A stretch of DNA of 64,000 bases from Rhizopus arrhizus (taxonomy: Eukaryota > Mucoromycota > Mucoromycetes > Mucorales > Rhizopodaceae): positions 744,001 through 808,000 of the forward strand of contig JAKZZE010000017.1 in the NCBI GenBank assembly GCA_024220505.1, written 5' to 3'. The translations under genes and the position numbers were made by a program. Positions 44,179-55,000 of the stretch are shown one piece after another. Under the pieces are notes generated by a model. That model did not search any database. It saw only the letters and a program-made list of their open reading frames with translations, and was not told where the DNA came from. Every line of letters starts with the position of its first letter. Position 1 is the stretch's first letter.

Positions 44179-44871
44179 TTAACGGGAAGTGGCAGCAGCC
44201 TTAGGGGCGAAACCCTTGGCTTGTTGCTTGCTGACCTTGGATTGAGAAGCAGCCTAAAAGAAAATGAGTATTTTACTGTGTATCAACCACAAACACTTAC
44301 AGAGGGGTTAGCCTTCTTAGCGGCAGCAGCAGACTTCTTGGCTTCCTTGCTCTTGGCAATAGCAGCTTGACGAGCAGCAGCACGGGCATCAGGCTTTTGG
44401 TTACGCTTGGCACGGATGGCATCCCAAGAGGCACCAACAACAGCACGTTCGTGCTTGACAGTACGACGAGAACGCTTCTTTTGAACTTCTTCGGTCATAC
44501 CCTTCTTGTTCAAACGACGGTAAATAGCGGTCCATCTGATCTTACGAGGATTCAAACGTTGGAGAAAGTAAGATTCGGTCTTACCGTTGATGAAACGGAA
44601 AGTCTAATTATACACATTAGGTCTCCTTTTTCTCTCTCACATAGTTGTTTGTTTTTCTATTGATTTAATCACTTACTCTAAAAATAGAGATAGAAATTAG
44701 ATTACATGTCAATTTTATAAAATCTTGTTTGTTTACCTAGAATCGATACGAACATAGGTCTTACCCTTGGCAGGATAGATCTTTTGACCAGAGAAAGAAC
44801 AAATCTCAAGCCTATATAAGATTTATATGAATGGATCAATTTATAGGGAATAGATTGATGTTTTACTTCAT
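44179..44871 (-). CDS. RPL24: 60S ribosomal protein eL24
   Basis: Exons: 44871-44867 (ATGAA), 44811-44737, a one-nucleotide exon at 44677, 44603-44301 and 44253-44179. Together they give 459 nt, 152 residues. The protein reads MKLEICSFSGQKIYPAKGK, then YVRIDSR, TFRFINGKTES, LNPRKIRWTAIYRR, GMTEEVQKKRSRRTVK and a Lys/Ala-rich tail ending QAKGFAPKAAATSR, very close to fungal eL24. Arg at the SR|TF position needs AG from exon 2 plus one base. Only the single A at 44677, flanked by TTTTTAG and GTAAGT, restores the frame. A first coding exon of five bases is also unusual. Role: large-subunit protein near the inter-subunit bridge, abundantly expressed. Confidence 0.93.
44604..44736 (-). other. two introns around a putative 1-nt exon in RPL24
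   Basis: Intron A is 44736-44678 (59 nt, GTAAAC...TTTTTAG) and intron B is 44676-44604 (73 nt, GTAAGT...AATTAG). The single exonic base is the complement of T at 44677. Both introns carry a CTAAT branch-like motif. The codon before intron B would otherwise be an in-frame TAG. Confidence 0.75.
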
Positions 44872-45229: not shown

Positions 45230-45667
45230 TTAAAAATCTAACAAAAGTTGAGGCAAAATTCTCTCCAAAGCTTCGACATTGATAACCTTCTTGTTTGTTG
45301 TTTGTGAAGCAATAGACATTGCTTCTAGTTCAGCAGAAGATCGGTGTACAGCCTCTATTAAATAAATTATCTGTTATTTTTTTTTTTTTTTTTTTTTTTT
45401 TTTGCAATAGACAAGGTTAGTTTTTACCAACAACGAACAAACGTAGAAATTCACTGGAGAGTTGTATTGCCTCTTTGTTTGCTACAACATTTCTCATTTA
45501 GCTAATGGGCAAATCAAATATTATGAAGAAAAACCTTTAGTAGATTCATTTTTCCATTCTGACTTGAATGCGTTGTGAATGACATCCTTAAAAAAGTTAT
45601 TGAATATAACGTCTTATAATATTAATACTTTTTTCTTTACTGGATTTAACTCTTGATTTTCTTCCAT
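45230..45667 (-). CDS. MHF2: CENP-X / MHF2 histone-fold protein
   Basis: Four small exons (45667-45641, 45586-45535, 45481-45428, 45354-45230; 258 nt) give 85 residues, the usual size for CENP-X (about 80). It starts MEENQELNPDVIHNAF. The histone fold follows: AIQLSSEFLRLFVVEAVHR, then a helix with ASQTTNKKVINVEALERI. The ending LPQLLLDF is the signature of the family. Established role: CENP-X pairs with CENP-S (MHF1) in the kinetochore CENP-T-W-S-X complex and in the FANCM/Mph1 DNA-repair complex. All four exons are too short to be seen as long open frames. Intron 3 contains a 27-nt T-run (plus strand). Confidence 0.88.
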
Positions 45668-52009: not shown

Positions 52010-55000
52010 TTAAGAAAAATAAGACCATCCAGGAGAAGCCAAGACATACACTCTATCTGTTCTTTTCAAAACCAAGGAAGGAACAGGGTTAGTATAAACA
52101 AAAGAAAGCTCATTTCCCATGTTTTCATCAGGCGCACGTAGGAGACCCAGAGTCAACACCTCATGATCCAAGATCAAGCTTTCAAATAAAGCAGAGAATG
52201 GTTTATCAATAAATGAAGGTGGCATCAAGATGAGCATAAGGTGCCTGGAGTTTTTAAAGAAGTAAGGATGAAACTTGGTTCTGCACGTCAACATGTGCTC
52301 AGTATCTTTATCATAAAGAGGACCTGGCATTCCACACAGAGCTTTGATGACAGATACAATATCCGGTTTGTAATAAGTTTGGCTTAATAAGACATTGCTG
52401 AGTAGATTATCGACCACAACGTTACCTGCGGCATATGCAGGCGTATAAAACACATCAATTTCTTCAGCAACGTCTTTTCCTTGTAATAAATGCATGAATC
52501 GAATATTGGATTTTTCCACTTTAAAAATAGTGAGTACATTTTATGAATTCACAAAAAAAAGCTTTACCAAGATTCACGATACGTGATGAGCCATGCGGTC
52601 TATCTTGAAGAAGTAAATCGAGAAGATGGCTTGTCATGCTATTATAAAATTAGAATCATTATTCAATGTATATTTCATATCACTTACATAGCTGGACTGT
52701 CTGAGGTTCTCTGATGCAAGTCCAGACATTCACTTTCACTAAGTAAAATGAATAAGGTGTTGCAAACCATATCTATTGAATGAAATATACCTCATCACAA
52801 CCACTTGTTTTGCTCTTTTGACTCCAGCTTTAATTAAATCGTCAGGATGTTGGCAATCGCCCTAATAATACTCATATTAGAAACGCAATGGTGTGAATCA
52901 TATTTACAACTTACTATCATGAAAAAAACTTTAGGAAATCTACATAATGATTCAAATGTTTTGTCTGTTGGTAAAGAAGTACATAAAAAGACAATATCTT
53001 GCAACTCATTCGGCTTTAATTGAGGACATCTTAAGTTGGAAGTAACATAATGATTAGCATCTTTTTTTTTAAAAAAAAAAAAAGAAAAAAAGAAAAAATA
53101 CCTTAGGTTGAAAATAAACTTGAAAATGTTTGATATTTTTTGGTGCATACATACTACGATATGGCCCGTTAAGTTCTCTGCAGACTCAATTGTCAATTCG
53201 TGTAATTTAGCAGGCTCATCCAACAAGTAGCAAAGAGGTGAATCTTCAACATCTGCATCAGGGTTCTCCAGAGAAGGCAGTTGACCCAGGCGACTCACAA
53301 GCCTTCTACTGCCTGTTAAAAGCGCCATACGAGGTGTTGGTAGCTTAGCCAATTGAAACTTTTGGCGTATAGAGGCCATGGTTCGAGTCGATTCAGCAGA
53401 ATTGGTATGGTATAGGTTACGAGTGCTACTTTGTGGCATCGGTGATCCTGGTCCTGAAGGGTGTATATTATTCAGCGCGCTTTCTTCATTGCTAGCTGAA
53501 ATAGGTTCGTTGACTGTTTTTGTATCGTTTTTTACAGAGGATGATGATGATGATGGAGCAGGTGGAGCATGTTCAGACGTCCCTGGCAGTTTGCCATATT
53601 CTGCTGTACGTTTTGCTAACATATTGTCAATTTTTTCTCGAACATATTTTATATTCTAAAAGAAAAACAGGTATATCAGCGACAACGCAAAGATGCGATA
53701 GCAAAGAATTTACCAAAGCATTGACATCATTTAATTCTCTTGGGCTTTCGCACATATAAACACATAGATCATCAGCTTTAATAACGTAGTTATCTTCAGG
53801 GTTCAAAAGCATTTCTCTGTGCTCTGGGCTGTCCAAATATGTTTTTACACCAAACAAAATGGCTTGACATTCAGTATAAACCACCTAAAAAAGAGACAAG
53901 TGTTATAATGTGCTTTCTTTCTTTGATTTTTAACGCTTACCCATGCTGCTTCCTTGAAAGATAAACCCACTAATGCTGAAGGAGGCTTGTCCATGTATAT
54001 CTCGTTGCACGATCCATCATCTATAAAGCCATTAGAACCAAAAGCCTTACAATCATATTGCTCAATGTTTACCATACTGCGCTTGCCATGATTCGTCATA
54101 GTGGTCCATGGGTCGCCTTTGATGCAAGAGATTAGTCAACAAGGTAGAGGCGCCACGACAACGGCAGTTCATGGCCAATAAATATTGTTTAAACTCTCCA
54201 ACGCAAATAATCTCCTTGGCCATCTTTTGATAAACAGCAGTAGAAGGTGAAAGATTATATGTATAGATATCAACATTATGGACCACTGTATGGCAATAAA
54301 GTGACCATAATCTAACCGTATTGCGTTCATCTTCTTTTTGAGGGTCTGACGTATGTTGATCTATTGATAAAGAATGAATTTTTAATTTATTTTTACAGCC
54401 AGAGCTATTTAAAGACGGACCTGAAAGTGTAAAAATAGCAGAAGCTGATCTTGCTTGCTATAATTAAAGATTGTTAGCGTTTTTCATAGAGTCAAGTGCC
54501 AATGAAATCTTAATATTCACCACTCGCTTTAAAGCTTGTTCGTCCTTTAAAATAAACCTATAAGTATAATGTGTATCAAAATAGAATTTGTCTAATACTA
54601 ACTAGAACGGAACCATGTATGAATTGAATACGATGCCCCCACATTGAATTTCTCTCCAAGAATTTTAATTCTTCGTTCGGTTTATTTATGTCTAGGAATA
54701 CGACATTCAAGTGAGGTTCTGTGTTTTCCTGTTAATTTAGGGCTGTTTAGATAAACAAAGAATCTTGAGTAGAAAGCAGATGGACTTACTGTATTTAGAA
54801 ATCCATCCAATATTTCTGTCACTTGTTCTGCTCGAAAAGAACCAATAATCAGTATAAACGGTTTTGATGAATCAGAAACATATCCTCCCCAATCTACCAA
54901 TTTTTGGTTATTCCAATATATATGCATATACTTTTGTGACTTTTACCATTCCTTTTTCGTAGTGTACTTAGGGCATCTGCGATTAAATTGGGCAATACTG

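Follow-up and report, generated by a model that had tools for sequence, protein, structure and literature searches.

Exons consisting of a single nucleotide form a very small class, which is reportedly treated also in work on placozoan mitochondria, and the phrase is said to occur in papers on fungal mitochondrial genomes. In Arabidopsis, a single-nucleotide exon of the APC11 gene has been shown by cDNA and reporter constructs (PMC4674806), and 1-nt microexons have been described in VPS55 and APC11 across land plants (PMC8831610). A one-nucleotide exon supported by SRA reads is reported in the CYP621A gene of Fusarium; the abstract of that study presents it as the second such exon and the first of any fungal gene, whereas VPS55 was in print by 2022 (PMC12940212). 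A first-pass annotation of the DNA studied here had proposed a further such exon, in a gene for ribosomal protein eL24, and had counted very few known cases, one of them in a plant APC11 gene. The smallness of the class stands, but APC11 is not its sole published case, as VPS55 and Fusarium CYP621A belong to it too. In titles and abstracts of the open-licence literature, we found no single-base exon reported for a ribosomal protein gene or for Mucorales, and no relevant microexon work for Mucoromycota or Mucorales; in the same literature, we found nothing on Rhizopus intron length together with ribosomal proteins, or on L24 introns in Mucor. Judged from sequence, the one-base exon of eL24 very probably joins this known class, in which it would be notable for its gene, its four copies, its probable age and its likely origin.

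The gene lies in the window, the whole stretch of 64,000 nucleotides of Rhizopus arrhizus DNA that was analysed, and its features are collected in Table 1. The phases read by the first-pass annotation were borne out in the window sequence, with exon 2 ending in phase 2 (TCT AG), exon 3 beginning in phase 0, and an in-frame TAG immediately 5′ of the ACT TTC CGT of exon 3 (44603). A direct join of these exons does shift the frame, running into a stop at codon 44 on translation, and exactly one base is needed to make the arginine of the DSR|TFRF stretch, in this gene as in all four eL24 copies described below. An A is indeed found at 44677 between TTTTTAG and GTAAGT, where it splits the 133-nt gap (44736-44604) into 59 and 73 nt with a CTAAT in each half. 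The normal size claimed for both half-introns holds as well: over the four copies, intron 2a measures 52–66 nt and intron 2b 53–73 nt (117–133 nt for the undivided gap), compared with 47–61 nt in the remaining eight introns of these genes. For R. oryzae, a mean intron length of 79 has been reported (PMC2699053). By eye, CTAAT is present in both half-introns for two of the four copies only, those on contigs C9 (the window) and C11. The first exon contributes only five coding bases, so that codon 2 is split as well, in all four copies. Just upstream of eL24, at about 45230-45356 of the window (minus strand), another gene ends (EAVHRSSAELEAMSIASQTTNKKVINVEALERILPQLL, as read by eye).

Table 1. 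Coding pieces and introns of the eL24 gene in the window, listed in the direction of transcription.
Feature	Position	Strand	Remarks
eL24 gene	44871-44179	minus	contains all five coding pieces, including the predicted one-nucleotide exon
eL24 exon 1, ATGAA, 5 coding nt	44867..44871	minus	same in all four paralogues
Intron 1, 55 nt, GTAAAA...ATATAG	44812..44866	minus	
eL24 exon 2, 75 nt, end in phase 2 (ATC GAT TCT AG)	44737..44811	minus	
Intron 2a, 59 nt, GTAAAC...CTAAT...TTTTTAG, phase 2	44678..44736	minus	probably gained; polarity inferred from Rlp24
Predicted one-nucleotide exon A, third base of Arg27 codon AG|A	44677..44677	minus	TAG|A|GTA[AC]GT, in all four paralogues
Intron 2b, 73 nt, GTAAGT...CTAAT...AATTAG, phase 0	44604..44676	minus	position and phase as in the first intron of Rlp24
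eL24 exon 3, 303 nt, start in phase 0 (ACT TTC CGT)	44301..44603	minus	
Last intron, 47 nt, GTAAGT...TTTTAG	44254..44300	minus	
eL24 last exon, 75 nt including stop TAA	44179..44253	minus	

A conceptual-protein search of the genome (50.3 Mb in 41 contigs) detected at least four eL24 genes, on contigs C9, C11, C15 and C41, and the same phase clash, one-base deficit and TAG|A|GTA[A/C]GT are found in all four. When the A is included, translation yields proteins of 152, 151, 152 and 151 aa, respectively; when it is omitted, every one of the four genes reaches a stop at codon 44. An in-frame join therefore needs one base, this base has AG and GT borders, the introns on either side are of viable size, and the arrangement is kept across paralogues, all of which characterises a single-nucleotide exon. 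The A at 44677 is thus likely a one-nucleotide exon of eL24, joined between exons 2 and 3 and completing the AGA codon of Arg27.

The first-pass annotation had named two observations that would speak against its reading, one of them a genome sequencing error. One-base gaps are a common type of assembly error, and a base lost at the end of an exon would mean that the gap is in truth one ordinary intron of about 134 nt. Coding identity between the eL24 copies is 94–97%, while the whole gap is just 49–65% identical; since the four copies share both the deficit and the TAG|A|GTA[A/C]GT even though their introns are so little alike, a sequencing error can be set aside, in favour of the original reading. 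An identical deficit would have had to arise at four loci, on four contigs and between diverged introns, and at that point the junction is not intact in public models of other species either, leaving next to no weight for a frame error in the assembly.

To the same gap, we applied a scan for micro-exons of 1–40 nt with AG and GT borders and introns of at least 40 nt. The A alone forms an in-frame, stop-free micro-exon in C9, C15 and C41, and C11 offers the A plus one 10-nt option that is absent from the other copies. Other micro-exons were rejected, as the scan gave none of 1–40 nt common to the four copies except the A. A zero-nucleotide recursive splice site was also rejected, with one A standing between AG and GT in all four copies, and no slippery heptamer that would suit a −1 ribosomal frameshift was apparent by eye at the direct join TCT AGA CTT. 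In all four copies, the letters AGAGTA would permit parsing as a [D1,2] stwintron, in which an inner intron ending in TAGAG would split an outer donor G|TANGT with no exon between. While such nested introns are known in fungi (PMC5639578), the product here would be frameshifted, with a stop by codon 34 in all four copies, which reduces the probability of this parse to almost nothing.

A scan for single introns (GT/GC-AG, at least 40 nt, acceptors up to 75 nt inside exon 3) found eight frame-keeping alternatives per gene, each of which loses 6–48 residues. Seven of the eight delete DSR, and the remaining one spares DSR but drops the next 23 residues; the region affected is gapless in four aligned eL24 chains of solved ribosomes (alignments for four, from the best 60 of 86 matching sequences). 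A single intron with shifted borders would leave a shorter protein, for example TAT|GTTCGT...TAG|ACT, which lacks VRIDSR. This intron is canonical GT-AG and in frame in all four copies, and the same solution has been deposited for public models of Rhizopus and others (e.g. P0006 and P0016). However, it removes six residues that are found in all 54 models from outside Mucorales and Umbelopsidales among the best 120 of 318, the genus of P0016, Mycotypha, also has a model with these residues intact (P0005), and the donor GTTCGT is dissimilar to the other donors of these genes, making a shifted single intron very improbable. Within the limits scanned, a one-nucleotide exon is the sole canonical GT-AG option that keeps the frame and the whole of DSR|TFRF in all four copies, supporting the first-pass proposal, and it is further supported because it also predicts how public models of related fungi fail at this junction.

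The chief remaining rival is one non-canonical TA...AG intron (TAAAC to TTAG), for which exon 2 ends in TCT AGG; it predicts AGG rather than AGA at the Arg27 codon, giving AGG|ACT with no micro-exon. This was the second adverse outcome envisaged by the first-pass annotation, and it still yields the right protein in all four copies; it would likewise mislead gene predictors. We know of no established spliceosomal class of TA-AG introns, and such an intron does not account for the AG-A-GTANGT island kept in all four copies, nor does it explain the double length of the gap or the public models that read DSR-V-[R/C/S]. We give it a slim chance.

Within the interior of the gap, no stretch is better conserved between the four copies than this island around the A. 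Nine of its ten columns are invariant in the four-way intron alignment (column permutation 0.0001), its longest invariant run is 7 (permutation 0.001), and none of 150 shuffled-and-realigned sets reaches its invariant-column count or run length. In 20,000 dinucleotide shuffles, AG-N-GTANGT with both flanks of at least 45 nt arose 49, 15, 36 and 10 times for C9, C11, C15 and C41, respectively, figures that are not to be multiplied because the four copies are related. The looser AG-N-GT is not rare, appearing in 3449, 1036, 1489 and 894 of 20,000 shuffles for the same genes in the same order; since the bare pattern is so common by chance, the weight lies with the full donor and the conservation. 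In the window, AGNGTANGT is not enriched (4 found versus 4.66 expected), and TAGAGTAMGT occurs once versus 0.12 expected. One of the three other AGNGTANGT matches in the window, at 52044, sits within a long open frame. For TTTTTAGAGTAAGT, a single further exact match was found in the genome (C21, L017:1918); by eye, it resembles an ordinary exon end followed by a donor.

Public protein models of related fungi bear on the same junction. A search ranked by similarity to Rhizopus eL24 gave, as the best 120 of 318 proteins, 60 models from Mucorales, 6 from Umbelopsidales and 54 others, where we take genus names to indicate membership of Mucorales or Umbelopsidales (Umbelopsis and Sporodiniella were confirmed in the taxonomy). 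Among these best 120 of 318, an intact junction is absent in 47 of the 66 Mucorales and Umbelopsidales models (41 of 60 and 6 of 6, respectively) and in none of the 54 others. The 19 of 60 Mucorales models with an intact junction have a protein that fits a one-base exon or a simpler structure alike. Of the 47 faulty models listed, ten cut exon 2 at KxY|xFRF, ten read exon 2 in another frame, eight continue as DSR-V-[R/C/S] (Mucor, Rhizopus stolonifer, Absidia, Rhizomucor and Lichtheimia), two show the direct skip, DSR-LSVS, two read DSR-Y-[V/A], as expected for read-through of the first donor, and 15 are of other kinds; some of the 47 are more widely damaged (P0021, P0040 and P0047). Translation of a retained intron 2b in the four genes of our genome gives DSR-VS, DSR-VS, DSR-VR and DSR-VR, which is the signature of the eight models, and these would fit, as expected, the A followed by read-through of GTNNGT. 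Against a one-base exon, DSR-V-[R/C/S] could equally come from a partly retained, plain phase-0 intron after AGA.

Because a ranking by likeness to Rhizopus could miss damaged models of other clades, we redid the search from a Mortierella-group protein, where 25 of the best 120 of 2010 proteins were already in the first list. The junction is absent in one of the 18 Mortierella-group entries among these best 120 of 2010 (P0132), and in one of the 149 distinct entries from outside Mucorales and Umbelopsidales, some of them metagenome records, in both searches combined (best 120 of 318 and best 120 of 2010). P0132 (Benniella sp.) is a shortened eL24-like model whose start lies directly before SFRF, a hint that an intron occupies this position in Mortierella-group eL24 as well. 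Scans of viral and prokaryote contig collections gave no eL24 loci.

Two Rhizopus delemar eL24 models, P0019 and P0021, match the window copy at 98 and 100% over 85 and 82%, respectively. In both, the gene that ends just upstream (Pfam PF09415) is fused to exon 3 of eL24; such a false chimera is consistent with a missed one-base exon. Exon 2 of C9, C11 and C15 bears the cryptic-donor-like AAGGGTAAGA (window 44759-44768, minus strand), in place of which C41 has AAGGGAAAGA, and this stretch is apparently used, in the wrong frame, by some public models such as P0019.

Two further genes, on C12 and C40 (L018 and L019), came from searching the genome for Pfam L24e; we take them to be Rlp24-like, and their database matches carry that name. 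Rlp24 and eL24 are identical at 25 of 62 N-terminal residues without gaps, and the first Rlp24 intron (60 and 51 nt in the two genes) lies in phase 0 after residue 27, NDSK|TFRF, equivalent to the eL24 site IDSR|TFRF. It is a single ordinary intron with no AG-N-GT inside. The best 120 of 5561 proteins in a search for Rlp24 models comprised 50 from named Mucoromycotina (one Jimgerdemannia, the rest Mucorales and Umbelopsidales) and 70 others, with record P0219 counted among the latter. The junction is absent in one of these 50 Mucoromycotina models (P0293, which begins just before TFRF), with the proviso that models worse damaged than P0293 might rank below the best 120 of 5561; from the same best 120, 11 of the 70 others failed a strict pattern yet were intact by eye. 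With one of 50 listed models lacking the junction in Rlp24 and 47 of 66 in eL24, the annotation trouble appears to be specific to eL24, rather than to the clade or the position.

As Rlp24 has an ordinary phase-0 intron at the same residue, intron 2b is probably old and intron 2a gained one base away from it. This suggests that an intron at the shared site predates the eL24/Rlp24 duplication; parallel intron gain at the same site of both genes is possible. Intron 2b would then be the old phase-0 intron common to eL24 and Rlp24, and the gain of 2a one base upstream would have stranded the A. The arrangement probably predates the divergence of the four gene copies, and perhaps also the split between Mucorales and Umbelopsidales. 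A bolder proposal, to which we assign even chances, is that the one-base exon has been fixed in eL24 of the whole Mucorales-Umbelopsidales lineage since before that split, born of the insertion of a new intron one base upstream of the pre-duplication intron, with all ribosomes of these fungi depending on it and its skipping serving as a built-in off switch for eL24.

Introns 2a and 2b would each be recognised through intron definition and spliced out in succession, since two spliceosomes are unlikely to assemble one base apart. With AG at the end of exon 2 as well as of intron 2a, the 2b donor is unchanged by removal of 2a: its positions −3 to +6 (AGA|GTANGT) are identical before and after in all four copies. 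If 2b is out first, 2a is left with TAG|AACTTTC (TAG|AACCTTC in C11). Either order would therefore leave the other intron complete. In all four copies, the 2b donor is GTAAGT or GTACGT, whereas the 2a donor has no G at +5; our guess from these donors is that 2b might be removed first. A point against a one-base exon is that the bases preceding the 2b donor, G at −2 and A at −1, fit the usual donor consensus poorly. Skipping of the A leads to the premature stop at codon 44 seen on translation, presumably followed by mRNA decay. Taken as a whole, an explanation that combines a one-nucleotide exon, sequential splicing and the gain of 2a beside an old 2b has our strong confidence.

If this is true, four copies of an essential ribosomal protein gene all carry the smallest possible exon, and the spliceosome must process a one-base exon faithfully all the time. 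It would also explain the frequent mis-modelling of eL24 among public Mucorales proteins, false gene fusions included, and makes eL24 a concrete case for annotators to correct.

Among the described systems, APC11 is like eL24 in having one A between two introns that is needed for the frame; it differs in being a single-copy plant gene with the base within a 422-nt stretch, whereas eL24 is a ribosomal protein gene present four times, its two introns are short and its exon is predicted from sequence (PMC4674806). The same combined splicing model is discussed by the APC11 authors, who refer to a plant example where removal of the second intron comes first (PMC4674806). The plant VPS55 and APC11 microexons are described as kept over a wide clade and absent from reference annotations, as may be the case for eL24, and plant models without the 1-nt exon predict shorter or different N-termini, like the eL24 models above (PMC8831610). 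The donor after the single base of VPS55, GTRAGT, is also similar to that of eL24; flowering plants hold VPS55 copies with and without the exon, while eL24 keeps it here in all four copies (PMC8831610). Fungal stwintrons share with introns 2a and 2b the immediate contact of two short introns and their successive splicing, but there the inner intron sits within a splice element of the outer intron and no exon separates them, where eL24 would have one exonic base (PMC5639578).

The Fusarium CYP621A exon is, like that of eL24, fungal, and was revealed by a phase clash inside a conserved motif; it is kept in orthologues, as that of eL24 may be; its gap of 139 nt in F. graminearum is over twice the median intron, and the eL24 gap is likewise double (PMC12940212). 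Unlike in eL24, the base is a G (AG|G|GT) and the gene a rarely expressed P450 (PMC12940212). The two may differ in origin as well: the authors propose for CYP621A the loss of a base and rescue by a cryptic exon (PMC12940212), whereas the comparison with Rlp24 suggests a different route for eL24, which would better fit an old phase-0 intron and a second intron gained a base upstream of it.
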